Positions 4,944-24,919 of a stretch of 64,000 nucleotides of DNA are shown here, piece after piece. Every line of letters starts with the position of its first letter. Positions within the stretch are counted from its first letter, which is position 1. A model generated the notes under the pieces. It had not been told where the DNA came from. It saw only the letters and a program-made list of their open reading frames with translations, and made no database searches. Source of the stretch: Victivallales bacterium (GTDB lineage: Bacteria > Verrucomicrobiota > Lentisphaeria > Oligosphaerales > Oligosphaeraceae); assembly GCA_017535315.1 (NCBI GenBank), contig JAFXUD010000012.1, positions 62,001-126,000 on the forward strand, written 5' to 3'. The position numbers were made by a program, and so were the translations under genes.

Positions 4944-6056
4944 TTATGAGTTATGCCACCCTATTGCTTCTTCAAATTCACGCCGTAGCCCCTTTTGATA
5001 TAGCATCTGTCCCATTAATTGCCCTGCATGGTTTCCCTCCATCACACACCAGCCTTTTGGCGTGAGAACAACATCCCAGCCGACATAGCGGAAACTAGGA
5101 AGCCTTAAAGCAAGCTCTGTAGCAAAATCAAGCAACTCTTCCCACCTTGGAATTTGATACCCTTTGAAGCGGATGCCAGAATCAGGATGTAACTCGACTC
5201 TCTCGCCATTCTCTTTTACACCATCAGTATTAATCACTCCTGTTTTCGGATCAATTCCTGCATCGAATCCATTGACTGCCGCGCTAGCGATAAAAGAGCC
5301 TGATGCACCAAACTTTATCCAAGGGTAAAAGAATGAGACAGATTTCCCTGTCCGAATCGTAATCAATCTAACTGCGTTAATTGAGGCTGGATGGAATGCG
5401 GCCAGTTCGTCCACTTGCTCCATCAATTCTTCAATGACCAGAGATTTAACTTTTTCCAATTTGGAAAGTCCTTCCAAATTTCCCAAAAGCTTAAGCATGG
5501 CTTTAAACAGTTCGTCAAAACAACTGTAAGAATCTGCAGAGACTTTTTGCACTCCAAATGCACAACTTCCCCCAACTGGTTTCACAACAAACTCCGAGTG
5601 CTTCTTCACAAATGCCTCAAATTCCGCTCTGTCCTTCTCGCCAGTTAATTCAATAATATCTCGCTTATAATAATCCTTTAGCAATTTATAAGCCTCAAAT
5701 TTGTTTCTAAGCAGATGCCAATCATTTGGATCATTCATAAAATTATAATATTGCCAACGATTCCTTTCAGTAATATATTCGCGCTTCTGTTTGTCGGTTT
5801 TGTTTTCAAAAGCCAAATAGATTTCTTCGTCAATTGTGCTGCCATAATTCCAATAATCATATACAGAAAGATAATATAACTGTTCTTTCTGTTCCTGAGA
5901 ACGTAACGAACAATACTTGTTGATTGTCTTCCAGATTATATTCGTCATTGATTCCGTATAAATCTGTGGATTTCTGGCAACAATCTCTTTGCCAATGCTA
6001 ACCTTTTCATCGTAATCATCTGTAATATTAATCCAACTTGTGTCAATAGTCAACAT
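4944..6056 (-). CDS. Sugar-transfer-associated ATP-grasp protein
   Basis: A 370-aa protein of the ATP-grasp type found next to sugar transferases (ATPgrasp_ST-like). Visible elements are an ATP-binding FVVKPVGGSCAFGV near residue 155, a VIEELMEQ stretch near residue 205, and the C-terminal metal/substrate loop VLTPKGWCVMEGNHAGQLMGQ near residue 335. The family joins a carboxylate to an amine, alcohol or thiol through an acyl phosphate and is known from polysaccharide loci such as TupA-like teichuronopeptide synthesis. The C-terminal loop resembles the orphan fragment at 20228-20410. It is encoded 34 bp before the APC permease gene. The substrate is unknown. Confidence 0.82.
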   Translation of the reverse strand: MLTIDTSWINITDDYDEKVSIGKEIVARNPQIYTESMTNIIWKTINKYCSLRSQEQKEQLYYLSVYDYWNYGSTIDEEIYLAFENKTDKQKREYITERNRWQYYNFMNDPNDWHLLRNKFEAYKLLKDYYKRDIIELTGEKDRAEFEAFVKKHSEFVVKPVGGSCAFGVQKVSADSYSCFDELFKAMLKLLGNLEGLSKLEKVKSLVIEELMEQVDELAAFHPASINAVRLITIRTGKSVSFFYPWIKFGASGSFIASAAVNGFDAGIDPKTGVINTDGVKENGERVELHPDSGIRFKGYQIPRWEELLDFATELALRLPSFRYVGWDVVLTPKGWCVMEGNHAGQLMGQMLYQKGLRREFEEAIGWHNS

Positions 6057-6099
6057 ACAAACTCCTTTATGTCAATCAATGAATAATTGATGTCGATTA

Positions 6100-7398
6100 T
6101 CAATAATTATCGCTTAAAAGATTTACATCAAATCGATCATAGAGCATGTTTTCACCTTCTGTGTTTTTCACAATAACAGTATCTTGAATCGTTTTTATAG
6201 TATCACGAATCTCCTGCAGCGTTTTGCCTACAATATATGCTCTAAAGGTTTTGGAAAACTGGGAACCGTTGTTGACTATTTTTGTACCGATCCTGTGGTA
6301 GAAACATGTGTGCAACACATTGGGCAACGAATCTATTTTTTCTTTTCCACTTAAGCTTCCAATAATGCCATCTCTTGACAAAAGAGTGAACGTACATCCG
6401 TAATTGCCTTTAAAAGAAGGATCCTCTTTGACTAGTTCTTCTGGATGCATATTGCCTGTAAGAGAATAACTAATAAGCATCTTTAGGTGATTGGTTTGGT
6501 TAAAGTACTCTGTATAGTGGTAAGAATTTGTTCCTCCAAGTCTAAACCCCAATTCAAAGAATACAATTGAACCATCAGGTTGTGCAAACCCCTGAAGACT
6601 AATGACTCCGTTTTTTAACCCCATGTTCTTAAGCATAGTTTTTACATTATTATCATACTTTTCAATAAATTTTTGTAACTGGTTTGATGGATAGAGATAT
6701 GCATCCATGAGTGCATTGAATCCTTCTCGCTCAATTCGAGCATACTTGTCAAAGATAGAAGCAAACGCCGCCTTGCCATCAGCTAATGTATAATAGGCTA
6801 CGACCTCATGTCCATGTAAGACTTCTTCAACTACTACACGTTTTGATTCCGAAAATGATAATGCATATTGAATACACTCCACTATTTCCTCTTTTCTACT
6901 GCAAAAACGAATGCCACGAGAACCTGCGTTGTCAGTCGGCTTGACAATAACTGGGTACTCAATTTTATCTAAATCATCTGGCTTCATTTCAGCAGTTACA
7001 TAGTAATCCTTTGCAACCGGTACCTGATATTTTCGGCAAATGCTTTTGAATAGAAGCTTATCCCTAGTAATTGCCAATTGGTCTTCATCGTTTATATAAA
7101 ATGACGTATTCAATTCCCTGCTGAGCCTAATTGCACAATTTGTGCGAAATTCGCTGAATCCAGCAATTACACCGTCCACACCACATTTCAAGGCCATCTC
7201 CTTTAAAGCTGGAATGTCTGCCCAACTGATATTCCAAGCATCATCAGAAATTTTCTTAGCTGGAGCATCGTCCCAGTTTTCATGATTGTCTGTTGTAATA
7301 GTATAAACCCCCATTTCTCTAGCTGCATTGACGATTTCGCATTCATCCTGTGTAGCACCTAAAATCAACAGACGTTTGCCATTTAATTCTTCAAACAT
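6100..7398 (-). CDS. ATP-grasp ligase (carbamoyl-phosphate-synthase-like fold)
   Basis: A 432-aa ATP-grasp protein. The Rossmann-like N-terminal pre-ATP domain begins LLILGATQDECEIVNAA. The ATP-binding lysine segment is YPVIVKPTDNAGSRGIRF near residue 150, the adenine-binding region is VVVEEVLHGHEVVAYY near residue 190, and the C-terminal half has a GGTNSYHY loop. The likely reaction is ATP-dependent ligation of an amino group to a carboxylate; the substrate is unknown. Its start overlaps the end of the PLP-protein gene by 8 bp, indicating translational coupling. It belongs to the same subfamily style as the genes at 8348, 16354 and 17640, and may have arisen by duplication and divergence. 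Confidence 0.85.
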   Translation of the reverse strand: MFEELNGKRLLILGATQDECEIVNAAREMGVYTITTDNHENWDDAPAKKISDDAWNISWADIPALKEMALKCGVDGVIAGFSEFRTNCAIRLSRELNTSFYINDEDQLAITRDKLLFKSICRKYQVPVAKDYYVTAEMKPDDLDKIEYPVIVKPTDNAGSRGIRFCSRKEEIVECIQYALSFSESKRVVVEEVLHGHEVVAYYTLADGKAAFASIFDKYARIEREGFNALMDAYLYPSNQLQKFIEKYDNNVKTMLKNMGLKNGVISLQGFAQPDGSIVFFELGFRLGGTNSYHYTEYFNQTNHLKMLISYSLTGNMHPEELVKEDPSFKGNYGCTFTLLSRDGIIGSLSGKEKIDSLPNVLHTCFYHRIGTKIVNNGSQFSKTFRAYIVGKTLQEIRDTIKTIQDTVIVKNTEGENMLYDRFDVNLLSDNY

Positions 7399-8338
7399 TT
7401 TTTATTTCCTCTACTAGATATGACATTTCCTCCACTCCATATCTTTGGTCTATGGGCAAAGGGAGGATATTCTTCGCCATTTGATATTCCGTCTCATTTT
7501 CGCCGCACCACTCCAGCACGTCTGGCCAGAGGGTCGGAATGTAGATTTTCTTCTGAAGCAGATTTTTCCTCACTTCTGCGCCATTTTCAAGCAACAGTGG
7601 ATACATGAACGTGCCTGGTCTTTCGCAGAGTTTCAGACCATTAATGTCCTTCAGGCATCTATGAAGATAGAGATAATTCTGTTCACGAACAGCCTTCGTC
7701 TGCTCATAGTCTATTCCATGCAAAAGATTCTCCGTAAGTTTCGACATCCGCTTGATTGGCTCGGTAGCGAATAAATCGTTGTTAGCGGCATACTCGCTGT
7801 AGAACTCGCTCGCCGTCCGTTCAAAACGTCCAAGAAGGAAATGCATCCGCTCAAAGGATTCATCCCGTGGGAAATCCACATCCAATTTCGCATCGGTGTA
7901 AAGGATAGCGCCATCCGCCACACCAAAATACTTTCGACAGGTATAGAGTGTATCAATGCCTGGAAGCGGCAACTGGAAATAACTCTGGGCATGATCGACT
8001 ATAATTCTCTTATATTTGGCGACGTATTCGGCAATCTTCCCGTTGTCGAATTGTGAATAGTAGTTGACAAAGTAGAACCAATCGTCTTCCCCAAGCCTAA
8101 TCTCCTGCGATGGCAGGAAATCTACCCCTACGCTGTAAAAAGTGTATGGAACGCCCTCGCGTCCACACACTCCCGTCACGGAATCGCAGATAAACTTCGG
8201 AATCCAAAGCCGTTTGATCTTTCGTGCCTTCAGAAGATAGGCAAGCGCATTCCGCCCACAATTGAGCGCAATTGCACTTTCATGCAACATTGGAAGCCGA
8301 TAAGTGTCCAGCTCTATGTAACCGCCAATCTCCCGCAT
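7391..8338 (-). CDS. DegT/DnrJ-like PLP-dependent aminotransferase family protein
   Basis: A 315-aa protein that looks like a shortened fold-type I PLP enzyme of the DegT/DnrJ/EryC1 group. The expected PLP lysine is in TCRKYFGVADGAIL near residue 135, preceded by an Asp-His (VDHAQSYF) that would hold the cofactor ring. The family usually aminates keto-sugars of nucleotide sugars and has 360-400 aa, so this copy is short and may act on another substrate. It is sandwiched between two ATP-grasp genes, overlapping the downstream one by 8 bp. The keto-sugar supplier could be the CapD-like domain at the head of the operon, but that domain may be inactive. Confidence 0.7.
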   Translation of the reverse strand: MREIGGYIELDTYRLPMLHESAIALNCGRNALAYLLKARKIKRLWIPKFICDSVTGVCGREGVPYTFYSVGVDFLPSQEIRLGEDDWFYFVNYYSQFDNGKIAEYVAKYKRIIVDHAQSYFQLPLPGIDTLYTCRKYFGVADGAILYTDAKLDVDFPRDESFERMHFLLGRFERTASEFYSEYAANNDLFATEPIKRMSKLTENLLHGIDYEQTKAVREQNYLYLHRCLKDINGLKLCERPGTFMYPLLLENGAEVRKNLLQKKIYIPTLWPDVLEWCGENETEYQMAKNILPLPIDQRYGVEEMSYLVEEIKNV

Positions 8339-8347
8339 TGTCGTGCT

Positions 8348-9550
8348 CTATTTCTTAAGCAGCACTTTTACAAATCGCGAGGGATCTTTCATGACCTCCT
8401 GGAGACGTTTTTCCGTCTTGAACTTCAGTACAAGTGTCCCGATTGCCTCGTTGGCGGCGGTGAACCCTCCGACTTTCGTGCCCGACTCAATCCAGAGGTC
8501 GCGTTCGAAGACCGCATCCGCGATGGAATCATCGATCCAAAGGGAGTCAAAGACACCAGGCTTGTCGCTGTGCAGGATAACTTCCGCCCAGCAGCCGTTG
8601 TATGGCTTCTGCTCAACGCCTACCGTCGGCATGCCTAGAGCGGCACGAACTGCGTTCTCCACCAATTTCACGCCTGTGGCGTATTCCAGGCACTCTGCCA
8701 GACGGTTTCCGCCGCCGCGTGGAGAGCATTCCATGATGTACGCCTTTCCATCAGTCCCCTCGCGCGTCTCGATGTTGTAGATGGATGTGCCCAATCCCAA
8801 AAGCTTGATCAGTCGCTGTATTTCCGACGCCAGTTCAGCCTGATGCTCTTGTGTCATCGAAGATGGCCAGCTGTATGCGGCGGGGGTGTAGGGATTCTCA
8901 GCCTTTGAGTCAAAGCGCTGTGAGTCGAATGAGACGAATTTTAGTTCGCCGTCAACGGAAAAACTGTCCGTATCAGAAGAAAAGCCATGTTGAGTTATGA
9001 AATCCTCTATGATGAACTCCTTGCCGCGAGAAAATGACAGGGCGTATTCAATGGCCTTGCGAAGATTGGCAGGATCGTCCACGCGGTTGACGCCCTTGCT
9101 TCCTGCAGAATCCGTCGGTTTCACAATCACTGGCCAATGGAAAAGACCGACATCCTTCAACGCATCGTCAATTGATGTGTATCCTTTCGCAGTCGGAACA
9201 TTGAAGCCATGTTCGGTCAGGAACGCGCGAAACTTCCCCTTGTTCTGGAGAATTGAAACAGCCTCGTAGCTTCCGACGGACGGAAGCCCCATCTTCTCAG
9301 CCACGTATGCTGCCGTCACAACGCCTGGATCACATGCGAAAGATATCACACCGTCGATGTTCCTTTCCTGCGCTGCATTCAGCGTTGCCTCCTGGTCGGT
9401 GATGCTGACATTGCAGTATTCGTCTGAGTATTTGTGGGCAATGTTGTCAGGCAAATAGTCCGCCGTAATGACATACACGCCAAGCGAATGCGCGGCCTTG
9501 ATGACAGGCAGGGCATAACGCGAACCGCCAAGTATCATAAGTTTTTTCAT
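8348..9550 (-). CDS. ATP-grasp ligase
   Basis: A 400-aa ATP-grasp enzyme. It opens with a Rossmann-like motif (MILGGSRYALPVIKAA). The ATP-binding segment is WPVIVKPTDSAGSKGVNR near residue 140, a hinge region is FIIEDFI near residue 180, and the metal-binding/catalytic loop is AYIMECSPRGGGNRLAE near residue 280. The architecture matches ligases that couple amino acids or amines to carboxylates, in the same broad fold as PurK, carbamoyl-phosphate synthase and L-amino-acid ligases. Its ATG overlaps the end of the acyltransferase gene by 4 bp (ATGA), so the two are translationally coupled. Substrate unknown; a role in decorating the polysaccharide repeat is inferred from context. Confidence 0.87.
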   Translation of the reverse strand: MKKLMILGGSRYALPVIKAAHSLGVYVITADYLPDNIAHKYSDEYCNVSITDQEATLNAAQERNIDGVISFACDPGVVTAAYVAEKMGLPSVGSYEAVSILQNKGKFRAFLTEHGFNVPTAKGYTSIDDALKDVGLFHWPVIVKPTDSAGSKGVNRVDDPANLRKAIEYALSFSRGKEFIIEDFITQHGFSSDTDSFSVDGELKFVSFDSQRFDSKAENPYTPAAYSWPSSMTQEHQAELASEIQRLIKLLGLGTSIYNIETREGTDGKAYIMECSPRGGGNRLAECLEYATGVKLVENAVRAALGMPTVGVEQKPYNGCWAEVILHSDKPGVFDSLWIDDSIADAVFERDLWIESGTKVGGFTAANEAIGTLVLKFKTEKRLQEVMKDPSRFVKVLLKK

Positions 9551-10602
9551 TTTATCTCTCTTGTTTTGTAAGGACTCTTTCCAACCATGACTGGGAAAAA
9601 GTGATTAATGAATACGGCAAGCAGGCAAGACACTATTGACGTCACCACACATGTTACTATCAAAGCAATCGCATCTGGAACGTGAATGTGCCTGAAGATT
9701 GCCTTGAACACTTTGATAAAAGGCTTGTGAACAACTAATATGCATAACGTATTTTGCCCAATAAAAGCAAGGATGTCAAACTTGCAAGATTCGCACTTTG
9801 GAATAAATCTATCCAGCAGAATGCTCACCGACAGTACAAACGCGGTTTCTATGAATCCAGCCAGCAAAAATAACAAAAAGTTGCCATACCTTGCCTCTGC
9901 CATTAAAGCAACTCCAAAACTAGGATAGATAAACTTGAAGATAATAGTCACAGCAAGAGTAACCAAAGCAATCACAAACCAAATAGACAAAACTCTTTTA
10001 GATGACTCAACATTCTTATTAAAATTTTGTATAAATGGATGCAGGATATTACCCATCACCAAGAAACCAAATGCAGCAAAGGAGACATCAAAACACCATG
10101 GATAGCCGTACTTGAAATGTGGTAAAGAGGCTGCAATGCAAAACGACACGACACACAGAAAAGCCTTCACAGGCAAATTCAGTTTCTCCTTGATAATCAT
10201 CTGAGCCAGAAAAAACAATGTCATCGCCTCAAACAGAACGGGAAAAAACCACAGGGAAGTCAGAGTCCCTGCCTTGAGAAGAGACCTATGACTCCCATAT
10301 ATTATCAGAATCAGATTGCGGTCAGTAAGAGATGCATAGATGAGAGCCCATAGAAAATATGGAAACATCAATGCCGTGAACTTTTTCCACATCAATAAGC
10401 CGCACTCGCGGACATTTGCTACGGGTTGATTCTTAATCAGCATTCCCGAAGCAAAGAAAAACGCTGGCATAAGGAAAGCATATATCCACGGCTTAATCGC
10501 TTGATTTGCAAAATTAGTGTGGGTAATGATTACCAAAAGCATCAAAAGAGCCTTGAAATAATCTATGTACCTGAAGTGCTGTCTTGTTTTTATTTCATCC
10601 AT
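9547..10602 (-). CDS. Acyltransferase 3 family membrane protein
   Basis: About 351 aa with ten predicted membrane helices. It begins with the family signature YIDYFKALLMLLVIITHTNF, whose His lies in the first helix, and continues through AFLMPAFFFASGMLI. I use the ATG at 10602 (MDEIKTRQ); an in-frame TTG lies three codons upstream. The family O- or N-acylates surface glycans using cytosolic or membrane acyl donors. The gene overlaps the downstream ATP-grasp gene by 4 bp and follows the cytidylyltransferase gene by 27 bp. Together with the homologue at 20-1081, the locus has two acyltransferases, implying two acylation sites or two acyl groups. Confidence 0.86.
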   Translation of the reverse strand: MDEIKTRQHFRYIDYFKALLMLLVIITHTNFANQAIKPWIYAFLMPAFFFASGMLIKNQPVANVRECGLLMWKKFTALMFPYFLWALIYASLTDRNLILIIYGSHRSLLKAGTLTSLWFFPVLFEAMTLFFLAQMIIKEKLNLPVKAFLCVVSFCIAASLPHFKYGYPWCFDVSFAAFGFLVMGNILHPFIQNFNKNVESSKRVLSIWFVIALVTLAVTIIFKFIYPSFGVALMAEARYGNFLLFLLAGFIETAFVLSVSILLDRFIPKCESCKFDILAFIGQNTLCILVVHKPFIKVFKAIFRHIHVPDAIALIVTCVVTSIVSCLLAVFINHFFPVMVGKSPYKTREIK

Positions 10603-10629
10603 TACTACCAAGCCTATAACGTGTCACAT

Positions 10630-11070
10630 CTATGCGTTTGGAGTGTCATCCAGCACGTGCTTAAGCACTTCTGTAAGTTTGGTGCTGCTTATGCCATCGG
10701 TATGGGGAAGGAAAACCAGATCCACCCCATGTTTTGCTAGTTCCTCCTTAGTCTGCTCCCAACGTGGATTGCCTTTCCAGTCGTCGCCAATGAAAATGGC
10801 ATCAAAGTGGTACTTTTCCAAAGCATCAAGTTTGTCAAGGGTTGTGGTGATGACACACTCGTCAACCGCCTTGATGTTGCGGACGATTTCCGCCCGCTCG
10901 CTCTCTATAATAACTGGCGACTTCTGCTTGTATGACCTCACAAGTTTGTCGGAGTTGACGCCGACAATCAAATAGTCGCAGTACTCTTTCGCGTGGTTGA
11001 TCAGATTCAAGTGACCTATGTGGAACATGTCATACGTCCCTTGAGTATAGCCTATTTTGTATTTCTTCAT
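10630..11070 (-). CDS. tagD: TagD-like cytidylyltransferase (glycerol-3-phosphate type)
   Basis: A 146-aa single-domain nucleotidyltransferase. It has the signature GTYDMFHIGHLNLI (HxGH) near residue 12 and the C-terminal GISSTKL motif near residue 128. This length and motif set match glycerol-3-phosphate cytidylyltransferase (TagD) and ethanolamine/choline-phosphate cytidylyltransferase relatives, which load an alcohol phosphate onto CMP. A CDP-alcohol would allow a phosphoglycerol-like or phospho-amino-alcohol decoration of the polymer. No TagB/TagF-type polyol-phosphate transferase is visible in the window, so the acceptor enzyme is missing or non-homologous. It lies between the flippase and acyltransferase genes with short gaps. 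Confidence 0.83.
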   Translation of the reverse strand: MKKYKIGYTQGTYDMFHIGHLNLINHAKEYCDYLIVGVNSDKLVRSYKQKSPVIIESERAEIVRNIKAVDECVITTTLDKLDALEKYHFDAIFIGDDWKGNPRWEQTKEELAKHGVDLVFLPHTDGISSTKLTEVLKHVLDDTPNA

Positions 11071-12599: not shown

Positions 12600-13673
12600 T
12601 CATTCACTGAATGATTTCTTGAATAATTTATTTTTGGGGGACTTTCCGTAGAACATTTTCTTTGATGAATCTGGCTCAGGATATTTGGAATAGTCGAATA
12701 AATACTCTGGAAGTTCCTTTTCAATTATCTTTATGTCATCGGAGAACTGAGTGAACCTTTTGAAAACCTGTGTATTCGCAATGGAAAGCTCAGGGTCAAA
12801 CACGCTTTTGGGTCTCGGATTTTCGGGCAGGTGCAGGAAATCCCTCAGCGCCTTTGATGTCCGTTCATATTCGTAAACCATGTCCTCGAAACGAATTCTC
12901 AAGATTCTTGGATCATCTTTCAGATAAGGTTGATCCTTCCGCAAGGCTCGATAATACGCAATAAAATCCTCGACATTGTTGATTGGCATGTAGTGGAACC
13001 GCCCCAGCATCCTAGTCCGCGCAAAAACATAATTGTCCCTAGGATCACGATCGACAACTATTGCGTATGGATCACGGTAGAATGGGAAACATGCCTGGGG
13101 GTTATTGCCCGAAAACGGCTGGTCCAACGCGATTATGCCATTGGGATCCAACCCCATCGCCTTCAGCATGTCATCAACAAGTCTGCTCGCCTCTGTATAG
13201 AAATTGTCTGGCAAGACTGACATCTTGACTTCTATCAGTGGCCAGCATTTGACATGGTGTCCCGCCTTCTTTTCCAATCTGGGTATTATTTTCCTCTTCA
13301 TAATATAATAGGCCAAATACTTAAGCGAATACGCAGGCGTTATGCTGTTGTCATACCAATACCATTTCACCATGGTGATTTTTTCAATAAACCTTTCTAT
13401 CAGTTGCCTGAATGTTTCCTTCGAGAGTCCATGAATTTCATAAATGCGTTCTATCCCCTTGGCCATGGCCTCGAAACGCCTAATTGCAACAATGGAATCC
13501 CCAGAACGAGTATGTGGATTCATGACCGCCCTCTCTAGGTCGATCAATCCATCTATCTTGGACACCCACGTAAACTCCAAATCGTCTTTTACCGTGATAT
13601 TGTCATATTCCCTTAAATAGTCGGTTACTACACTTGACCCTGTAGAACCAAATCCACATGCACCAATTATCAT
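12600..13673 (-). CDS. Sulfotransferase-like P-loop protein
   Basis: A 357-aa cytosolic protein opening with a phosphate-binding-like loop, MIIGACGFGSTGSSVVTDYL. In the C-terminal half comes a PAPS-type 3'-phosphate region, YAIVVDRDPRDNYVFARTRML near residue 210, followed by ILRIRFEDMVYEYE near residue 265. This matches bacterial sulfotransferase-family proteins found in capsule loci, in which DRDPRD contributes to 3'-phosphoadenosine binding. It could sulfate the glycan, though no PAPS-synthesis genes are in the window, and it could be another P-loop transferase. It follows the glycosyltransferase gene by 48 bp and precedes the flippase gene by 21 bp. Confidence 0.7.
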   Translation of the reverse strand: MIIGACGFGSTGSSVVTDYLREYDNITVKDDLEFTWVSKIDGLIDLERAVMNPHTRSGDSIVAIRRFEAMAKGIERIYEIHGLSKETFRQLIERFIEKITMVKWYWYDNSITPAYSLKYLAYYIMKRKIIPRLEKKAGHHVKCWPLIEVKMSVLPDNFYTEASRLVDDMLKAMGLDPNGIIALDQPFSGNNPQACFPFYRDPYAIVVDRDPRDNYVFARTRMLGRFHYMPINNVEDFIAYYRALRKDQPYLKDDPRILRIRFEDMVYEYERTSKALRDFLHLPENPRPKSVFDPELSIANTQVFKRFTQFSDDIKIIEKELPEYLFDYSKYPEPDSSKKMFYGKSPKNKLFKKSFSE

Positions 13674-17639: not shown

Positions 17640-18797
17640 TTAATGTCTTCTCTTATTGAGACCATCCTGGAATCCCAGAATCTTTTGAATCGTATATGCA
17701 AACCATGGCTTGATGTCGCCATCCCAATATACAACGTCTTTTGTGTCTTTCCAACTGAACCAACTTGGATTAGCATGAAAACGATTCGGAGATTTAATAA
17801 ACCACCAAAAGTCGGCATGAAAATGGCGTGTCAACTGTCCAAACTTTATGTTTGCAGGATATTGTTCAACATCTTGGTCGTATGCCATCTCAATTAGCAA
17901 TTTAGCTACATTGAAACCGCATTGCCAGCTTAACTTAATACTTGCGGGAATTCGCCCGTTAATCTCCTGAAGTTTCGGGGTGTTATCAGTTTTGTCAATC
18001 ATGAAAGACAAGGCGGCAACCCCCTGCCAGTTCATCGCTTTTAAAAGCCTCGCCGCATTATCCAGCAATTCAGGGTTGTCAATGGAGCGAATTAGACAGG
18101 CTGTACCTGCGTCAATCGGAAACCAACGCAAAACTTCGTCTGCATATGACATGCAGACATTGCCTTTCTGATCGACAAAAAGGATGGCTCCGAGATATTT
18201 ATCGTATTGTATGAACTTTTGAAGGACATACTGATTAAGGTCTATCTGATGCTCCTGAACATACGGCCAGAAATCTTCGCGCTTCTCAAACTTGTGAAAC
18301 CCAATGGATCCCATTCCCGAACGCGGCTTGATGATAACAGGAAATTCCACTTGATTCAAGTAGTCTTCCACGCTTTGCTCAGAACGTCGAGTGACAGGAC
18401 AAGGCATGCCAATATTCATGGCGTGCTCGAATGTGTTCTGTTTGTTGAACGCTTGAATATATGCCTTACGTGGAGCGCAAGCCAACTTGACGTATTTTTT
18501 GTATTCATCCTCATGCTGTGTCACTTTGTTGGTTGTCATTTCGGCAACAGGCAGAAGCACATCATATTTTCCGCTGATTATTTGCGAATGAAGGAAATCC
18601 TCAAAACCATCAAGTGAACCTGCAGCGTTGATATTCAATATTTTTTCATCGGGCAAATTTGAAGCATAGCATACAGCATACTTTGATGGACAAAGAACGG
18701 TAACGTGACACCCAATCTCCTTTAATCCATGCAAAATGGTCAATGTCTGCCTTGCACTACCGTCAGTCAATAATACCCTTATCTTGCTAAAGTCCAT
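17640..18797 (-). CDS. ATP-grasp ligase
   Basis: A 385-aa ATP-grasp enzyme. The pre-ATP domain begins VLLTDGSARQTLTILHGLKEIG, the ATP-binding lysine segment is FPVIIKPRSGMGSIGFHK near residue 150, the hinge is YVLQKFIQYDKYLGAILF near residue 190, and the metal loop is PKLQEINGRIPASIKLSWQCGFN near residue 270. The E-I-N-G-R motif is the classical metal-binding loop of the fold, so this copy looks catalytically complete. Together with the genes at 4944, 6100, 8348 and 16354 it makes five intact ATP-grasp genes in 14 kb. It is 13 bp from the sugar transferase gene, so the two are co-transcribed. Confidence 0.87.
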   Translation of the reverse strand: MDFSKIRVLLTDGSARQTLTILHGLKEIGCHVTVLCPSKYAVCYASNLPDEKILNINAAGSLDGFEDFLHSQIISGKYDVLLPVAEMTTNKVTQHEDEYKKYVKLACAPRKAYIQAFNKQNTFEHAMNIGMPCPVTRRSEQSVEDYLNQVEFPVIIKPRSGMGSIGFHKFEKREDFWPYVQEHQIDLNQYVLQKFIQYDKYLGAILFVDQKGNVCMSYADEVLRWFPIDAGTACLIRSIDNPELLDNAARLLKAMNWQGVAALSFMIDKTDNTPKLQEINGRIPASIKLSWQCGFNVAKLLIEMAYDQDVEQYPANIKFGQLTRHFHADFWWFIKSPNRFHANPSWFSWKDTKDVVYWDGDIKPWFAYTIQKILGFQDGLNKRRH

Positions 18798-18810: not shown

Positions 18811-19518
18811 TTAATTATCTGTCACTTTGCCGAAAACTTTCTTTTCAGCCTCGGCTTCATATTTTGTATATGGAAACTCTTTCTGTTTCAGCACCGTAAT
18901 CTGAAACATCAACTGCAATGTCCTGAAAATGCAATAAACATCAAGCCCAATACTTTGTCTATGCACATACATACTTGCAAGAAAATCCCGTACAGGAGCA
19001 ACCTTTTTTGCAAACTCTTCATTGTCCTTCACAACTAGTTCTCCATGTGCATAGTCAAAAAGACTGTCAAGACACGCCAAACCAGGCCTAATTGTCAGTA
19101 CATTATCATATTTCCCAATGTAGTGATTCTTTACTCCTGCCTCTGAAAGAGGCCTTGGACCTACAATACTCATCTGACCTGACAAAATATTGAATAGCTG
19201 CGGTAATTCATCTAGTTTGCTTTTTCGTAAAAAACCACCAAACTTGAATATTCTATTTTCATTTGCAATATATCCACCTTCTCGTTGTTCTCCCTCTCCT
19301 TTTATCTCTGGATGATATACATGCATGGAACGGAACTTATAGAGCGTAAATTTCTTATTGTTCTTTCCTATACGGTCGGCACAATAAAAAACAGGTCCCT
19401 TGCTTGAGCATTTGATGCAAATTGCAATCAACAACCATAAAGGTGATGTTACAACAATCGCCAATGCCGAACATAAGACATCAAACAACCGTTTTATCAA
19501 TCGATATAAAGATTTCAT
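18811..19518 (-). CDS. PglC-type phosphoglycosyl transferase (initiating sugar transferase)
   Basis: A 235-aa bacterial sugar transferase of the small monotopic type. The N-terminal re-entrant hydrophobic helix is LFDVLCSALAIVVTSPLWLL. It is followed by GPVFYCADRIGKNNKKFTLYKFRSMH, the catalytic Asp-Glu pair in SKLDELPQLFNIL near residue 115, SIVGPRPL, and IRPGLACLDSL. It would transfer phospho-sugar from a UDP-sugar to undecaprenyl phosphate at the inner leaflet, starting the repeat unit. Its likely donor is a UDP-HexNAc made by the nucleotidyltransferase and kinase domain upstream. It sits between the PIG-L deacetylase and the tandem ATP-grasp genes. Confidence 0.9.
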   Translation of the reverse strand: MKSLYRLIKRLFDVLCSALAIVVTSPLWLLIAICIKCSSKGPVFYCADRIGKNNKKFTLYKFRSMHVYHPEIKGEGEQREGGYIANENRIFKFGGFLRKSKLDELPQLFNILSGQMSIVGPRPLSEAGVKNHYIGKYDNVLTIRPGLACLDSLFDYAHGELVVKDNEEFAKKVAPVRDFLASMYVHRQSIGLDVYCIFRTLQLMFQITVLKQKEFPYTKYEAEAEKKVFGKVTDN

Positions 19519-19529
19519 ATAAGATATCC

Positions 19530-20189
19530 CTACTTTGTTTCCCTTATGAGCATGAACGCTTCAGCGGCTTTCACATTGACAGTTGCACCCCTTAGTTTGG
19601 CAAGTGCCTCCACTGTTTCAAGAGAACGCAAATCTGGGAATGGATGAACCTGTGATTTATAAAAGGCAAGCGCTTTTTTCTTATCCTCTAAAAAGTCTGT
19701 AATGTCCTCAAACACATTTGGAATAAACGAATAATTTTCCGATGGAATGTTTATTCCTGTCTCCGAAAGCGTTTCGTATGCATAGATGCGTTTCACAGGA
19801 TGATTATACTTCTCTCGAAGAGCGACCATAGCGGCTTCTATTACAATCTGGTGGTCTTTCTGCATATCTCCCCAGAACGGCAGATATACCTCTTCTGGCT
19901 GCACTTTGACAATGGCATCAAAGAAAGCCTTGTTCAAATCCGTCCTTGGAAATTTTTCTAGATTGTTTGCCCAAAATGGAAAACCGATGTACTCATCTAT
20001 ATTGCAGAACGCATGAGCCTGCTTCATCTCTTCATGGATAATCATCGTACAAGGGGGCAACTTCAAGCCTTCTTTGGCTGTCACGACACACACTGCAACA
20101 TAGTCCCCCGCCGCCTTCCTCTTCAATATAGTTCCCCCAACCCCGATGATTTCATCATCACGATGTGGCGCAAAAATCAATACTCTCAT
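19530..20189 (-). CDS. PIG-L family deacetylase
   Basis: A 219-aa LmbE/PIG-L type zinc-dependent N-deacetylase. The metal-binding signature is at the N-terminus (FAPHRDDEIIGVGGTI, the PHxDDE motif), and a later His lies in WGDMQKDHQIVIEAAM near residue 115. The family removes acetyl from GlcNAc-type sugars, often on lipid-linked or nucleotide-linked substrates. Between the nucleotidyltransferase and the PglC-like gene, it probably creates a free amine on the first HexNAc. That amine would be a natural acceptor for an ATP-grasp ligase, which makes a coherent chemical story but is inference. The gap to the sugar transferase gene is 11 bp. Confidence 0.88.
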   Translation of the reverse strand: MRVLIFAPHRDDEIIGVGGTILKRKAAGDYVAVCVVTAKEGLKLPPCTMIIHEEMKQAHAFCNIDEYIGFPFWANNLEKFPRTDLNKAFFDAIVKVQPEEVYLPFWGDMQKDHQIVIEAAMVALREKYNHPVKRIYAYETLSETGINIPSENYSFIPNVFEDITDFLEDKKKALAFYKSQVHPFPDLRSLETVEALAKLRGATVNVKAAEAFMLIRETK

Positions 20190-20227
20190 GCAAATTAACC
20201 TTTTTAATTATTCAGTTCCAACAATTC

Positions 20228-20410
20228 TTATTCCTGACTCTCCATATAAGCCTGATAGAATAATTGCGGATTCTGTTTTCTCAACCCTTTGAATTCGAAG
20301 AACTCTTTGACCTTCGGACGTGAAAGCGTTGGTCCACACATGATCTGCTCGTAGTCAATCGCAGGATGGGAATTGATCTCACACAGTTTCATTCCATCCT
20401 CTGTGATGAT
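20228..20410 (-). pseudogene. C-terminal remnant of an ATPgrasp_ST-type gene
   Basis: An open stretch of 60 codons on the minus strand ends at TAA 20228-20230. Its upstream frame closes with a TGA just beside the stop of the nucleotidyltransferase gene. The translation contains EDGMKLCEINSHPAIDYEQ, the typical end loop of sugar-transfer-associated ATP-grasp proteins, compare the end of the protein at 4944-6056. Only the last fifth of such a protein is present. An ATG at 20392 with AGAGGA before it could yield a 54-aa product, so a small expressed protein cannot be excluded. I read it as the leftover of a deleted or replaced ligase gene. Confidence 0.6.
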
Positions 20411-20414
20411 TCAA

Positions 20415-21164
20415 TCAGCCCTTTGTCGATTGCATTCTCTTCGTGAGGATTTCCTCGCAGATGGCAACATCGTCGGGGGTGTTGATGCCCCTGGGGTCAT
20501 CGGGATTGTCCGTTGGGAATGTCTCGACGGTCATGCCCCTTCGCGCCATGAGTTCGGGGATTTCGGTAAGGTAGTATTCGTGCTGGACGTTGTTGGTCTT
20601 GAGCTGCGGAAGAAGTTCGAAGAGGGACTTGCTGTTGAAAACAAGGACGCCCGCCTCCAGTTCGGGGATTTTAGCCTGTTCGGGCGTGCAGTCCTTCCCC
20701 TCGACGATGCGCTGGAAGCGCCCGTTCTCGTCCCTGACAATCCTTGCCCACATCTTAAAAGCGGGGTTGACAGCGGTGAGAAGCGTGCAATCGGCGTGTT
20801 TTGCCTCATGGAACTCACACATTGCCTTCATGCATTCATACCTGAACAGGGGCATGTCGCCAAAGGCGACAAGCACGGTCCCGTCATAGTCCTTAAAGGC
20901 GTCGGCGCATTGCATGACGGCGTGTCCCGTTCCAAGCTGCTCCCGCTGTTCAACATAATGGTACTTGTCGCCAAAGTAGCCGATGATCTCCTCTTTCTTG
21001 TAGCCGACCACGATGTAGGTGTCATCGGGAGCGATAAAGTTGGTCTGCTCCAGGACGATTTCAAGAAGGGGACGCCCGCACAGGTGAAACATCGCCTTCG
21101 GCGGTGCGTCAGGGGACTTGCTTAGGCGGGTGCCTTTCCCTGCTGCTGGAATGATGACTCTCAT
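20415..21164 (-). CDS. Sugar-1-phosphate nucleotidyltransferase (GlmU-N-like)
   Basis: A 249-aa nucleotidyltransferase with the GlmU/GalU-type start IIPAAGKGTRLSKSPDAPPKAMFHLCGRPLLE, the base-binding QLGTGHAV near residue 78, the metal Asp in AFGDMPLF near residue 103, and VEGKDCTPEQ near residue 155. There is no left-handed beta-helix, so it lacks the acetyltransferase half of GlmU. QLGTGHAV is the usual uridine-binding motif, so UTP is the likely nucleotide. It lies 13 bp downstream of the fusion gene whose C-terminal domain is a HexNAc-1-kinase homologue. The pair would convert free HexNAc to HexNAc-1-P and then to UDP-HexNAc. Confidence 0.85.
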   Translation of the reverse strand: MRVIIPAAGKGTRLSKSPDAPPKAMFHLCGRPLLEIVLEQTNFIAPDDTYIVVGYKKEEIIGYFGDKYHYVEQREQLGTGHAVMQCADAFKDYDGTVLVAFGDMPLFRYECMKAMCEFHEAKHADCTLLTAVNPAFKMWARIVRDENGRFQRIVEGKDCTPEQAKIPELEAGVLVFNSKSLFELLPQLKTNNVQHEYYLTEIPELMARRGMTVETFPTDNPDDPRGINTPDDVAICEEILTKRMQSTKG

Positions 21165-21177
21165 GGTAAATGTTTTC

Positions 21178-24100
21178 CTACTGTTTGGTGTTTAGACCAA
21201 GCCTGGCATAGATATCTGAAAGAATTTGCTTGATTTTAGGGAGTTTTGCTTCCATATCCTCCAGCAACTTGAGTTGCGTGCGGGCACGGTCCAGGTTTTG
21301 TCCCTGATAGAAAATGTAGTAGTAGGTGTCGCCGTTGACATGGTCCATGAGGAAGCGGATACCGTCCTCTGCAGTGATAACCAGCGCGGCGTAAGGAAGT
21401 AGCTCCAGTTCGCGGGGAGTGAGCATCTTGCCGCACTGTTCCAGCCAACCGTTCGCATATTGCTCGTAAAGATTCAGATCGCACCAGACCTTGGAGAGGT
21501 CCTTTTCGTCGTCTTTTGCGGGATTCGTGCCAATGCGCATCGAATCGCCGAAGTCGTAGAGCGGGGTGGAGGGCATGACGGTGTCCAGGTCAATGACGGC
21601 AACGGGCGCGTTGGTCTCGTCGTCGAACAGCACATTGTTGAGGTTGCAGTCGTTGTGGCCAAGGCGTAGGGGAATGTCACCATTCTGGAGCGCATTGGAG
21701 ATTATCTTGAAAAGCTCCACATGCCGACGAACAAAATCCAGTTCAGGCTGCACCTGGGTTGCACGCCCGACTGGGTTTGCTTTGACAGCCTCCTCCAGAG
21801 CCTGATAGCGGGCAAAGGTGTCATGGAAATGGGGAAGAACCTCATGAATCGAAGCGGGATCAAGACCTTCCAGTCCCTTCAGGAAGGCTCCGAAAGCCTG
21901 TCCTGCATTGTAGAAGACCTGGGAATTTTCGGGGATATCATAGGAATGGACGTGGCCAATGTAGCTGAGCATCCGCCACGCGCCCGATTCGTCCTCGTAA
22001 AAGTTCTTCCTTTCCTGTGTTTGAATGACCAGTTGGTTGGCAAGAGTATCGGGCCTTCCTGGCAGACGGAAGTGTTTCTGCAGATGGGTGGTGACTTGGG
22101 CGAAATTGTCCATCAGCGCCCAGGCATCCGAAAAGACATTGGTGTTGATACGCTGAAGGGTATAGCTCTTCAGCGTACCGTCCTTTTCCTTCATGTCAAT
22201 GCGGTAGGTGCGGTTGATATAGCCCTTGTTCATCGGGATGGCGGCAACGACCTCGCCTTCAATATTGAACTTCAAGGCAATCCGTTCAAGGTTGTTGATG
22301 GGCTCCTGGGCCTTGACCAGCGTGGAGGCTGCAAATGGGGCTGAATTTTGCATGTCTGGCATATGGTAGGAGTTAACCAATTCTGTGATGCGTTCCTGCA
22401 CATCATCACAATTGTCCCGCACCGCCTTGAAAAATGCCAGCAGCTTCTGGATGAACTCATCGCATTCCATTCGGGTGGGATTGGCGATGTAGATGCGGTT
22501 GCAGGGGGTCTTGCGCATTCCTTCTTCCCACATTAGCGGCTCCTCGCGAAGTTTCTCGCCTGGGCGAAGCCCGGTGTATTGAATCGCAATATCAACCTCT
22601 GGCTCCAGACCGTTGAGGCGTATGAGCTTGCGTGCAATGTCATCGATGCGGTAGGGTGTACCCATGTCCAGAACAAATATATCTCCGTCCTGCGAATAGG
22701 CCACGGATTGAAGGATGAGCCGAACGGTTTCGGTGATGGACATGCAGAATCGGGTGGCCTCCTTGTCGGAAATCAGGACAGGACCTCCATTGGCTATCTG
22801 CTTCTGGAAGAGCTGGAAGACAGAACCTTCGGAACCAAGTACGGTCCCGAATCGAATGGTGGTGAACTCCGTGGAACAACTATCCCCCAGAACTGGCATC
22901 TTCTCCCAGGCATGGATATTGGGTGAAAAGAGCTTGGAGAGCTGACCCGTGCTGGAAAAGGTCTGGAATGTCTGCATGAGCAGTTCGCAGAGACGGCTTG
23001 CTGCACCTAGGATGCTGGTTGGATTGACTGCCTTGTCGCTGGAGAGCAGAATGAAATGGCGGCAACCGTACGCCATTGCAATGTAGGCGGTTTTGTAGGT
23101 GCCTATCACATTGTTTTTCAACGCCTCGCAGGGAGAACCTTCCATAAGGCTGAGATGCTTGTGACCTGCGGCGTGGAAAACGATTTCTGGACGGCATTCG
23201 TCGAATACCTGCGCAACTCGACGCGTGTCACGCACAGAGCCGACAAAAGCCGCCACGTCAATCTCAGGATGGTTTTTCTTCAGCTCAAGCTGAAGAAGAT
23301 AAACGTTGTTCTCGTTGATGTCGAAAATGACAAGGCGTTTGGGGGCGAAGGTGGCAAGCTGTCGGCATAACTCCGATCCCATTGAACCGCCACCGCCAGT
23401 GACCAGAATCACTTTTCCTTGCACATATTCTTTGATTTCCTCCTGGTTGATATTGACTGGGTCGCGCCCCAAGAGGTCATCCACCGAGACAGTGCGCATC
23501 TGGGAAAGCGAAACCTCGTCGTTACTGAATTGATAGTAGCCTGGCAGCAGCTTGACTTCACACCCAGTCTCCTGGCAGACGTTGAGAAGAGCACAACGCT
23601 CATTGAAGTTGAGACTGGGTATGGCGATGAATATTTTGGTTATGCCATATTTGGCGACCGCTGGAAGAATCTGGTCGCGCCCGCCGACGATGGGCACATC
23701 TTCCAACATGCAGTTCCATTTGTCTTTATCGTCGTCGATAATGCATTTGAACTGGATGTTGCGCAGGGTGGTGGTGGAAATGTCGCGAAGGACGAGCTGT
23801 CCCGCCGAACCGCCGCCGATAAGCATTGCATATTCCAGTTTGCCCTCTTTGTTGCTGGTGGAACGGGCGTACAGCAGTTTGATGATTCGCATGCAAAATC
23901 GGCTGCACAGTAGCAACACCAGCTGGAAAAAACCTCCCAACACGTAGTAGGAGATGGGCATGCGCTTCAGGAAGAGAAGGCCAATTACCCCATAGAGGAT
24001 GGTGGTGGGGAGAACCGCCACAATGCATCGAACTAGCTCTCTGTAGCTGGCATAGTCCCACAGACGATTGTACAGATGGACTATTTTGTAAATCGCCAGG

Positions 24101-24276
24101 CAGATGATCGCATAGTAAGGCGTCATCACTTCATAGCCATGCAGAAACTTATCTGGTATGTCCTCGAGCGAAAAGTCAAACCGCACAAACAAGGCCAGGA
24201 GATAGGCCAGCCAGATTCCCGCTATGTCGCCTATGAACAGCAACAGCGATATTTTTTGATGCTTGCGTATTTGCAT
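21178..24276 (-). CDS. Fusion: CapD/WbpM-like nucleotide-sugar dehydratase + N-acetylhexosamine kinase
   Basis: A 1032-aa protein with two parts. Residues 1-630 match the membrane-anchored CapD/WbpM/PglF group: four N-terminal helices, a CoA-binding-like domain, NAD motif VTGGGGSMGSE near residue 292, and YTGLRPGEKL near 560. Residues 660-1030 match NahK-type N-acetylhexosamine 1-kinases: INRTYRID, catalytic HNDCNLNNVLF near 875 and metal-binding VIDLDTVMP near 892. Normally these are separate proteins of about 620 and 360 aa. The reading frame is continuous. In the dehydratase the catalytic MGATK-type motif reads LGAAS, so Met and Lys are replaced; activity is doubtful. The uridylyltransferase gene follows directly. 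Confidence 0.85.
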   Translation of the reverse strand: MQIRKHQKISLLLFIGDIAGIWLAYLLALFVRFDFSLEDIPDKFLHGYEVMTPYYAIICLAIYKIVHLYNRLWDYASYRELVRCIVAVLPTTILYGVIGLLFLKRMPISYYVLGGFFQLVLLLCSRFCMRIIKLLYARSTSNKEGKLEYAMLIGGGSAGQLVLRDISTTTLRNIQFKCIIDDDKDKWNCMLEDVPIVGGRDQILPAVAKYGITKIFIAIPSLNFNERCALLNVCQETGCEVKLLPGYYQFSNDEVSLSQMRTVSVDDLLGRDPVNINQEEIKEYVQGKVILVTGGGGSMGSELCRQLATFAPKRLVIFDINENNVYLLQLELKKNHPEIDVAAFVGSVRDTRRVAQVFDECRPEIVFHAAGHKHLSLMEGSPCEALKNNVIGTYKTAYIAMAYGCRHFILLSSDKAVNPTSILGAASRLCELLMQTFQTFSSTGQLSKLFSPNIHAWEKMPVLGDSCSTEFTTIRFGTVLGSEGSVFQLFQKQIANGGPVLISDKEATRFCMSITETVRLILQSVAYSQDGDIFVLDMGTPYRIDDIARKLIRLNGLEPEVDIAIQYTGLRPGEKLREEPLMWEEGMRKTPCNRIYIANPTRMECDEFIQKLLAFFKAVRDNCDDVQERITELVNSYHMPDMQNSAPFAASTLVKAQEPINNLERIALKFNIEGEVVAAIPMNKGYINRTYRIDMKEKDGTLKSYTLQRINTNVFSDAWALMDNFAQVTTHLQKHFRLPGRPDTLANQLVIQTQERKNFYEDESGAWRMLSYIGHVHSYDIPENSQVFYNAGQAFGAFLKGLEGLDPASIHEVLPHFHDTFARYQALEEAVKANPVGRATQVQPELDFVRRHVELFKIISNALQNGDIPLRLGHNDCNLNNVLFDDETNAPVAVIDLDTVMPSTPLYDFGDSMRIGTNPAKDDEKDLSKVWCDLNLYEQYANGWLEQCGKMLTPRELELLPYAALVITAEDGIRFLMDHVNGDTYYYIFYQGQNLDRARTQLKLLEDMEAKLPKIKQILSDIYARLGLNTKQ

Positions 24277-24337
24277 TTTGTATGTGAAAATTTGGTTGCT
24301 TGCGATAAATGGAGACGAGAAGGGGTAAGCAGTAGAA

Positions 24338-24919
24338 CTATTCCTCCACTTTTCTCATCTTGTATTTGGAAGGGTCGATTTGAGCGCGGACGAATTGGTT
24401 GACAAACTCAATTTCAACCGTCCACAGGTAAAAACACTCTTTTTCCCTAAGCCATCCTGTCACGCCTGCCCAGGCGCCTGATTCTATGACAAAGCGGTCA
24501 CCCTCCACGAGTCCGACATTGAACTCAAGCTCTTGTTCCAGACCAGCCAGCTCCACACCGCGAACTGTCCTGACATCTTCAAGAAACTTCGGCGTATCCG
24601 AAACTGGAAGGATGTAGTTAACCGATTTCGAGGCAAATAACTTCTGCTGGCTCTCTTTGGTGAACTTGACAAACACGTAGGATGGAAACATCGGGCGATA
24701 GACCATCCGTGTGTAATTGTACTGTTTTCCCTTGCTGGTGTAGTTGTTGTGTTTCCAGCTCTTCTTCAGAGGCAGGTAACTCACCAGACCACAACTTTTG
24801 CAATAGTCGTAAAACCTAAACTCATGCAGAGGCATCGTATAAACAGGGCAGACGATTTCCTCGCCCGAAGGCATCAGAATGCGCTCGTCAAACTCTGGAC
24901 TGATACTCTCTGTTTTCAT
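24338..24919 (-). CDS. NusG paralogue (RfaH/LoaP/UpxY-type antiterminator)
   Basis: A 193-aa protein with a NusG N-terminal domain (VYTMPLHEFRFYDYCKSCGLVSYLPL, then RPMFPSYVFVKF near residue 85) and a C-terminal KOW-like region (LVEGDRFVIESGAWAGVTGWL near residue 140). Specialised NusG paralogues at the head of capsule, O-antigen or antibiotic loci bind RNA polymerase and suppress termination through the long operon they start. It is the first gene of the minus-strand locus, and everything downstream to position 20 is co-directional, a run of about 24 kb. The leader contains a hairpin (24948-24969) that is a candidate recognition element. RfaH, LoaP and UpxY cannot be distinguished by eye. 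Confidence 0.85.
   Translation of the reverse strand: MKTESISPEFDERILMPSGEEIVCPVYTMPLHEFRFYDYCKSCGLVSYLPLKKSWKHNNYTSKGKQYNYTRMVYRPMFPSYVFVKFTKESQQKLFASKSVNYILPVSDTPKFLEDVRTVRGVELAGLEQELEFNVGLVEGDRFVIESGAWAGVTGWLREKECFYLWTVEIEFVNQFVRAQIDPSKYKMRKVEE

Follow-up and report, generated by a model that had tools for sequence, protein, structure and literature searches.

A polysaccharide locus with eight predicted ATP-grasp ligases in a gut Victivallales bacterium, whose parts recur in two other phyla, suggests a coat carrying amide-linked amino or hydroxy acids

Bacterial surface glycans commonly carry amino and hydroxy acids in amide linkage, and few of the ligases that attach them have been characterised. 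What, then, might be made by a polysaccharide locus that combines many ATP-grasp ligases with a single candidate glycosyltransferase? The locus lies in a Victivallales assembly (genome size 4.9 Mb) of a gut bacterium whose nearest sequenced relatives come from ruminants, and was found in a stretch of 64,000 nt, hereafter the window. A preliminary description of the window had placed five intact ATP-grasp genes (4944, 6100, 8348, 16354 and 17640) in one run with polysaccharide genes and proposed that different ligases add amino or hydroxy acids successively to a short repeat unit. The coordinates of all five are as claimed, all match ATP-grasp Pfam families, and the richness in ATP-grasp genes had even been understated: eight intact ligase genes lie within 22 kb, five in the window and three left of it, a density that excludes chance (Table 1). 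The run is strand-consistent with mostly short gaps between genes, and beyond the window's left edge the three ATP-grasp genes are followed by an acyltransferase, a DegT gene, RmlA and RmlB.

Table 1. Genes of the ATP-grasp run, from its first gene to the left edge of the window and beyond.
Feature	Coordinates	Strand	Evidence
NusG paralogue heading the run (UpxY/RfaH-like antiterminator)	24338..24919	-	PF02357 25.7 bits, cut-off 22.2
PglF/FlaA1-type sugar 4,6-dehydratase + NahK-type N-acetylhexosamine 1-kinase fusion	21178..24276	-	Polysacc_synt_2 E 4.8e-92; APH E 7.7e-17
GlmU N-terminal-type uridylyltransferase	20415..21164	-	NCBIfam GlmU 222.9 bits, residues 3-246; under full-length cut-off
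Probable decayed 3' end of ST-type ATP-grasp gene	20190..20414	-	ST profile C-terminal end, 12.5 bits
PIG-L/BshB1-like de-N-acetylase	19530..20189	-	PF02585 E 6.7e-15; BshB1 54 bits, below cut-off
PglC-type phosphoglycosyl transferase (initiator)	18811..19518	-	PF02397 E 1.1e-48
ATP-grasp ligase 1 (carbamoyl-phosphate-synthase-like)	17640..18797	-	ATP-grasp_3 E 1.8e-9; PRK12767 67.5 bits, below cut-off
ATP-grasp ligase 2 (L-amino-acid-ligase/PylC-like)	16354..17580	-	ATP-grasp_4 E 2.7e-14; LAL_C2 E 2.9e-4
Wzy-like polymerase candidate	15038..16333	-	11 hydrophobic segments; no Pfam match
Glycosyltransferase candidate (GT4-like), sole one	13722..14978	-	PF00534 19.3 bits, below cut-off 26.4
Sulfotransferase-like protein	12600..13673	-	PF13469 E 7.4e-4, 20.3 bits, below cut-off 27
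Wzx-type flippase	11094..12578	-	PF13440 E 3.5e-92
TagD/RfaE-II-like nucleotidylyltransferase	10630..11070	-	PF01467 E 1.6e-19; equivalog models below cut-off
Membrane O-acyltransferase 1	9547..10611	-	PF01757 E 8.1e-26
ATP-grasp ligase 3	8348..9550	-	ATP-grasp_4 E 1.3e-12
Small PLP protein of DegT fold, flanked by ligases 3 and 4	7391..8338	-	Foldseek/AlphaFold; no Pfam match
ATP-grasp ligase 4	6100..7398	-	ATP-grasp_4 E 7e-12
ATP-grasp ligase 5 (ATPgrasp_ST type)	4944..6056	-	PF14397 E 5.7e-45
Amino-acid permease (APC family)	3497..4909	-	PF13520 E 1.8e-38
D-2-hydroxyacid dehydrogenase (HADH), cassette gene 1	2453..3427	-	PF02826 E 2.7e-62
MmgE/PrpD-family enzyme, cassette gene 2	1117..2481	-	PF03972 E 2.1e-38
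Membrane O-acyltransferase 2; run goes on left of window	20..1081	-	PF01757 E 1.1e-26; L005 annotation
Three further intact ATP-grasp genes	C49:58327-61944, just left of window		Pfam

All eight ligases exceed the cut-off of some ATP-grasp Pfam family and keep the ATP-binding lysine (in an I/V-V-K-P-like motif) and a Mg-binding E-x-N or E..R..GG motif, and with these catalytic motifs in place they are predicted carboxylate-amine ligases. Three are of the ATPgrasp_ST type (4944-6056, P0002 and P0003, with 154, 132 and 123 bits against a gathering cut-off of 31.4), a family that Pfam labels as sugar-transfer associated; they are only about 40% identical to each other, and no solved relative can be detected from their sequences. 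Two others, 16354 and P0001, stay below the LAL_C2 cut-off (21.5 and 19.4 bits against 29.4) and by this test resemble L-amino-acid ligases without being members; 16354 matches the L-amino acid ligase 3vot (E 1.8e-14). No TupA-named family appeared among the Pfam matches of the eight (up to E 0.01). That the genes might be unrelated housekeeping ligases, as the preliminary description had allowed, was ruled out: none of the five window ligases passed an NCBIfam cut-off (a scan that covered these five; the other three were compared with Pfam), every ST-type gene of the genome lies inside the locus, the ST type is missing from most sister genomes, and profile A2 found elsewhere in the genome only four weak genes of housekeeping length. 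A sixth, remnant ligase had been claimed at 20228, and one frame of 20190-20414 does align to the ST C-terminal Mg-loop, although weakly (the best of 200 shuffles reached 6.4 bits) and with no Pfam match.

Pfam confirmed the earlier calls of a Wzx-like flippase, a PglC-type initiator, PIG-L, two acyltransferases, the permease, a TagD-like enzyme and NusG. The test for a Wzx/Wzy-dependent locus found both a Wzx flippase and a phosphoglycosyl transferase; the Wzy-like polymerase stands as a candidate by its hydrophobic segments, though no Pfam family matches it. Two genes had been missed, namely the GlmU-type uridylyltransferase and the PglF/NahK fusion, which is also present in six further genomes from the family (G001, G003, G011, G020, G026 and G028) and whose kinase domain matches the solved NahK 4wh1 across the whole domain (E 1.7e-79), supporting a predicted NahK function. 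Left of the window, RmlA and RmlB exceed their model cut-offs and the DegT protein is nearest to 4-aminotransferases. For the DegT-like PLP protein inside the window, the AlphaFold model (pLDDT 81) has a predicted sugar-aminotransferase fold (Foldseek match to the DegT aminotransferase 3uwc, E 3.5e-12), and R135-K136 is invariant. The NusG paralogue scored 44.2 bits against the cut-off of 100 of the UpxY model NF033644, and a search for an ops-like RfaH element gave no convincing site; the head of the run is conserved in G011 at 51%.

The locus had also been described as poor in glycosyltransferases, with only one of classical type. One is indeed present, with a weak match and no solved relative, and no hidden glycosyltransferase was found among the unknown genes. 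The PLP gene was rejected as such by its DegT aminotransferase fold, and 12600 by a sulfotransferase-type RDPRD motif at residue 209. However, the ratio is local rather than general, because the related locus L074 shares these ligases, the permease and the sugar genes but encodes two clear glycosyltransferases plus a homologue of 13722 (31%).

From the gene content, the intact motifs and the recurrence of sub-modules in three phyla, we infer each reaction, its substrate and its order. The locus is likely to be a surface-polysaccharide operon of the Wzx/Wzy type, acquired by horizontal transfer and controlled by a NusG paralogue, and predicted to make a short amino-sugar-rich repeat to which stand-alone ATP-grasp ligases attach amino and/or hydroxy acids through amides. 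The NahK domain and the GlmU-type enzyme would form UDP-HexNAc, which the PglF domain would then dehydrate, and RmlA, RmlB and DegT would supply a dTDP-4-amino-4,6-dideoxyhexose. The PglC-type enzyme would place the first sugar on undecaprenyl phosphate, the single glycosyltransferase would add the second, and the PIG-L deacetylase would free an amine. Acting in the cytoplasm before export, the eight ATP-grasp enzymes would convert carboxylates through acyl phosphates into amides on sugar amines, or alternatively target carboxylates of sugars or of acids already attached. Their substrates would be amino acids that the permease imports, together with a dedicated acid from a cassette of 2-hydroxyacid dehydrogenase, PrpD-like enzyme, F7, CitE-like lyase and fumarase-like proteins. 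Acyltransferases, the sulfotransferase-like protein and the TagD-like enzyme could decorate the repeat further, and it would be flipped by Wzx and polymerised by Wzy.

The proposal of amide decoration is thus retained in part. Ligases that are not housekeeping enzymes lie amid Wzx, Wzy and PglC genes, amino-sugar genes, a deacetylase, a permease and acid-making enzymes, whereas their successive action does not stand as claimed; single decorations, placed in parallel on several amines or carboxyls, would account for the genes just as well. Such decorations, with one acid or amine per ATP-grasp at each position, or with alternative serotype cassettes exchanged at the same position, have not quite an even chance. 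In C. jejuni a single ATP-grasp serves each amide (PMC11800379), related loci differ in how many ST ligases they have (1 to 6) and of which type, as would be expected of exchangeable decorations, and the three here have diverged to the identity given above; yet a repeat built with a single initiator and a single glycosyltransferase should offer fewer amines and carboxyls than the eight ligases present, and the LAL-type enzymes look like dipeptide-forming ligases. More tentatively, and rather less probable, phylogenetically distinct ligases could successively build a peptide-like side chain on the amino-sugar repeat, including or ending in the acid of a conserved six-gene pathway with the uncharacterised enzyme family F7, to give a glycopeptide coat made independently of ribosome and NRPS by a set shared horizontally among three gut phyla.

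Looking for the same set in other genomes, we found that sub-modules recur in Bacillota (Clostridia) and Bacteroidota (Bacteroidales) as well as in Victivallales: AG3-PLP-AG4, HADH-PrpD-F7-F9-F13-F10, the permease and LAL-ST-ST. This recurrence of parts in rumen bacteria of two other phyla suggests a coat bearing amino or hydroxy acids in amide linkage. In the survey of named genomes, ST ligases served as seeds, which biases their co-occurrence with other modules there. The closest relatives of the ligases are in rumen Clostridia, with identity up to 46% for ligase 5. Ligase 3 forms its own clade, with orthologues in L071 (68%) and L100 (53%), as does ligase 4, with members from Bacteroidota and Bacillota; the three LAL-type clades each cross phyla. 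Permeases 69-78% identical to this one are encoded in five loci that are Clostridial or unassigned, and related loci also carry FemAB-like and PGA_cap proteins and transporters for amino acid, choline/betaine-type or citrate-type solutes. It is quite unlikely that the product of the ligases and the cassette is a small peptide-like metabolite, free to diffuse, with the polysaccharide genes as mere neighbours. LAL-type ligases do make free dipeptides, as known for BL00235-type enzymes, and the cassette enzymes are metabolic, but the ligases are interleaved at short gaps with Wzx, Wzy, glycosyltransferase and sugar genes, those of the other phyla share their loci with Wzx or PglC genes, and the Pfam label of the ST family points to sugar transfer.

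The cassette comprises six genes, HADH, a PrpD-like gene, F7, F9 (the CitE-like lyase), and F13 and F10 (fumarase-like subunits), whose products probably make a dedicated acid. Copies of HADH 47-72% identical adjoin ATP-grasps in other genomes, and the PrpD-family enzyme has as its nearest solved relatives 'Bacillus subtilis IRG1' (7bra, E 1.3e-28) and IDS-epimerase (2hp3, E 9.3e-21). For F7, neither a Pfam nor a PDB relative was found, and its structure model (mean pLDDT 54) is too poor for use. In the host genome the F7-F9-F13-F10 part may belong to another operon, since it lies about 8 kb past RmlB, after unrelated-looking genes. A catabolic role, in scavenging rather than in making ligase substrates, is unlikely overall, although a DctM-type transporter, further PrpD genes and a Ppd-like TPP enzyme adjoin F7-F10 there: in six loci, spread over three phyla, ATP-grasp and polysaccharide genes surround most of the cassette, and F7 occurs in 2 of 198 genomes of the class Lentisphaeria, both times next to ATP-grasp loci, a count that rests on two genomes and is the single seed-independent test of co-occurrence. 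The phosphonate pathway suggested by the Ppd-like enzyme was rejected, since the genome has no PEP mutase that exceeds the cut-off.

The acyltransferase left of the window is split by a frameshift whose break points differ between the host genome and L071, so the frameshift is not conserved, and a programmed frameshift was rejected. Together with the ligase remnant, it means that some genes may be decaying cargo, and the cargo genes are low in GC and atypical in composition. Nevertheless, the reading frames of the eight ligases and of every core export gene are uninterrupted and their motifs conserved, and a cluster that is as a whole decaying, partly non-functional cargo of horizontal acquisition is very unlikely.

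The locus and its relatives offer candidate ligases from several phyla in defined clades, along with a conserved uncharacterised acid-synthesis cassette. The chemistry is directly testable, because an isolate, Lachnospiraceae bacterium FE2018, carries one of the related loci, with the cassette, an 89% orthologue of the ATP-grasp ligase AG6 and two ST ligases. If the reading is true, stand-alone ligases build complex polysaccharide side chains and move as modules between gut phyla.

Several known systems share features with the locus. First, in the UpxY-headed capsule loci of Bacteroides, a NusG paralogue heads a variable polysaccharide operon. It is the first gene here as well, but with a score below the UpxY cut-off, in a Lentisphaeria host, and followed by the PglF-NahK fusion as second gene. 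Second, the teichuronopeptide of Bacillus C-125 (TupA) is a surface polymer of polysaccharide and peptide to which an ATP-grasp gene is linked. Both the ATP-grasp subfamily and the glycan differ; PMC2824669 cites the teichuronopeptide structure paper. Third, Cj1438C, a TupA-like ATP-grasp, amidates glucuronic acid of the C. jejuni HS:2 capsule and is likewise encoded in a surface-polysaccharide locus, forming an amide on a glycan sugar; there, one ligase domain fused to a glycosyltransferase joins the GlcA carboxyl to ethanolamine-P or serinol-P (PMC11800379), whereas here eight stand-alone ligases, none in a TupA-named Pfam family, accompany amino-sugar genes. Fourth, an ATP-grasp aminoacyl ligase is known from the CA_C2186-2199 locus, and the association of ATP-grasps with carbohydrate loci has already been proposed (PMC4000134); three of our eight ligases are members of ATPgrasp_ST (PF14397), while the table in that paper gives one ATP-grasp gene for the CA_C2189 locus and a dedicated acid cassette is not described there. 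Lastly, O-antigens and capsules include amino acids in amide linkage, and Providencia alcalifaciens O35, for example, carries alanopine on 4-amino-4,6-dideoxyglucose (PMC10609480), sharing the predicted 4-amino-4,6-dideoxyhexose pathway; our locus has no opine dehydrogenase, but its ATP-grasp-bearing relatives L074, L100 and L104 do. The earlier statement that no such system had been described is therefore too strong: amidation of surface glycans by ATP-grasp enzymes is known from earlier work (PMC11800379, PMC4000134), and bacterial glycans contain many amino acids in amide linkage (PMC10609480). The principle has precedents, and the number of ligases, the conserved cassette and the spread across phyla appear to be new.

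The five ATP-grasp genes placed on the minus strand of this run by the preliminary description were borne out by Pfam scans, and open reading frames were present at each position. The same scans upheld the Wzx flippase, PglC-type phosphoglycosyl transferase, PIG-L deacetylase, two acyltransferases, amino-acid permease and NusG paralogue, and detected a cytidylyltransferase-like gene; the sulfotransferase and the glycosyltransferase were matched too, but weakly. A dehydratase-kinase fusion was absent from the preliminary description. The proposed sixth ligase remnant near 20228 had no match in the Pfam scan, but one frame of the region aligned with the C-terminal Mg-loop of a profile of the ST type (ATPgrasp_ST, PF14397) at 12.5 bits, whereas 200 shuffles reached at most 6.4 bits.

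The locus exceeds the window, with same-strand genes directly left of its edge: three ATP-grasp genes, a frameshifted acyltransferase, DegT, RmlA and RmlB. Eight intact ATP-grasp genes lie within C49:58327-80797 of the source contig, all retaining the ATP-lysine and the Mg-binding motif. Intergenic gaps are mostly <80 bp, the larger ones being one of 225 bp, which contains the proposed remnant, and one of 325 bp, which precedes the frameshifted acyltransferase. All ST-type genes of the genome are within this locus, while elsewhere the L-amino-acid-ligase-like (LAL) profile picked up just four genes, all weaker and of housekeeping length (two of ~1,076-1,079 aa, one of 356 aa and one of 470 aa). 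The membrane acyltransferase left of the window is split by frameshift both here and, at a different break point, in a Clostridial locus, possibly through phase variation or independent decay.

Coordinates of features in the window, its flank (C49, source contig; L005, source-genome locus reaching left of the window) and related loci (L071, rumen Clostridium; L075, Lachnospiraceae FE2018; L108, Bacteroidales)
Feature	Position	Strand	Match
ATP-grasp ligases 5, 4, 3, 2, 1	4944, 6100, 8348, 16354, 17640	-	Pfam
HADH-PrpD	1117-3427		
Putative ST-type remnant	20190-20414		
GlmU-type uridylyltransferase	20415-21164	-	profile match
PglF/FlaA1-type dehydratase fused to N-acetylhexosamine 1-kinase	21178-24276	-	4wh1, E 1.7e-79
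LAL-type ATP-grasp	C49:60730-61944	same as run	
ATPgrasp_ST gene	C49:59533-60669	same as run	
ATPgrasp_ST gene	C49:58327-59466	same as run	
F7, F9, F13, F10	C49:42199-45699	same	
F7 copies	L005:2791-3699; L071:5503-6405; L075:5316-6218		
TPP enzyme, aldo/keto reductase, second PrpD	L005:3926-7544		
Split acyltransferases	L005:14978-16001; L071:7562-8582		
Six ST-type genes in a row	L108:6450-15540		
Choline-kinase fusion and BCCT transporter	L075:14427-18501		

Co-occurrence of the gene set in other genomes, suggested earlier as a check, was found for four sub-modules recurring across Bacillota, Bacteroidota and Victivallales: ligase 3-PLP-ligase 4, where PLP is a small DegT-fold gene; LAL-ST-ST; the permease, whose copies in Clostridial or unassigned loci are 69-78% identical; and a cassette of six genes for 2-hydroxyacid dehydrogenase (HADH), PrpD, F7, F9, F13 and F10. 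In trees, the LAL-type ligases of the locus fell into three well-supported clades, each with more than one phylum; on this evidence ligases 2/6, 3 and 4 each have an old origin and are not redundant. Among 57 named loci retrieved with the ST profile, 28 carried at least two ATP-grasp genes in a stretch of no more than 21 kb, the maximum being seven, in L108. That Bacteroidales locus, with six ST-type genes over ~9 kb and a further LAL-type gene, is even denser in ligases than the one described here.

Within the cassette, F9 matched PF15617 (CitE-like lyase) and F13/F10 resemble fumarase/tartrate-dehydratase subunits, while F7 had no sequence match in Pfam, NCBIfam or PDB. The F7-F10 genes lie 8 kb beyond RmlB. 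F7 is 92% identical to its rumen Clostridium relative and occurs in 2/198 Lentisphaeria genomes (the source genome and G028), both times beside ATP-grasp loci. The ~300-aa family is 73-92% identical across three phyla and, where found, always adjoins such loci. The stretch between RmlB and F7 holds an aldo/keto reductase, a second PrpD and a TPP enzyme that resembles phosphonopyruvate decarboxylase and passes the TIGR03297 cut-off; even so, the source genome has no clear PEP mutase.

The best matches of DegT are 4-aminotransferases (DesI, perosamine synthase), and RmlA and RmlB both exceed equivalog cut-offs, so the predicted product is dTDP-4-amino-4,6-dideoxyhexose. No family matched the small PLP protein by sequence, yet its structural model (pLDDT 81) matched DegT sugar aminotransferases. 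The closest match of PIG-L is BshB1, the bacillithiol deacetylase, which frees a sugar amine for subsequent acylation by an amino acid. Opine dehydrogenases (L074, L100, L104), FemAB-like and PGA_cap proteins, and transporters of amino-acid, betaine/choline or citrate type in related loci support putative amino-acid-like building blocks. In Lachnospiraceae FE2018, the ATP-grasp locus runs on into an NTP-transferase/choline-kinase fusion and a BCCT transporter, which hints at decoration with phosphocholine.

Because the ligases need ATP and lack obvious membrane segments, except for one hydrophobic stretch in ligase 2, they would act ahead of Wzx export, on nucleotide sugars or the lipid-linked repeat. 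The locus has one initiator and one glycosyltransferase, so the repeat may be just a disaccharide unless further glycosyltransferases are encoded elsewhere. It would offer up to three candidate amine acceptors (C4 of each sugar and the C2 freed by PIG-L).

The cargo genes have 32-54% GC (most <48%), compared to ~54% in the flanks. The ST genes have closer relatives in rumen Clostridia (identity up to 46%) than in sister Victivallales (23-34%), which points to acquisition of the cargo by horizontal transfer. Unlike the cargo, the head (NusG, PglF-NahK, GlmU-N) is a Victivallales feature. Six further genomes of the family carry the PglF-NahK fusion, and G011 has the same head with different cargo. 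Where checked, the fusion usually heads polysaccharide loci. Family members G011, G026 and G028 match Victivallales MAGs of water-buffalo rumen, reticulum and omasum, and the source host may live in a ruminant too.

The principle of ATP-grasp amidation, or of amide-linked acids on surface glycans, is already known: the ATP-grasp domain of Cj1438C, the C. jejuni capsule amidoligase, has been experimentally established to amidate a capsule sugar (PMC11800379), an ATP-grasp aminoacyl ligase was noted earlier in a modified-carbohydrate locus (PMC4000134), and amino acids in amide linkage occur in many O-antigens and capsules, one example being alanopine on 4-amino-4,6-dideoxyglucose (PMC10609480). 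The glycosyltransferase-poor ratio previously claimed as distinctive holds for this locus but fails for its relatives. As far as could be checked, what is new is the number of ligases, the clade structure common to three phyla, and a conserved putative acid cassette that includes an uncharacterised family.
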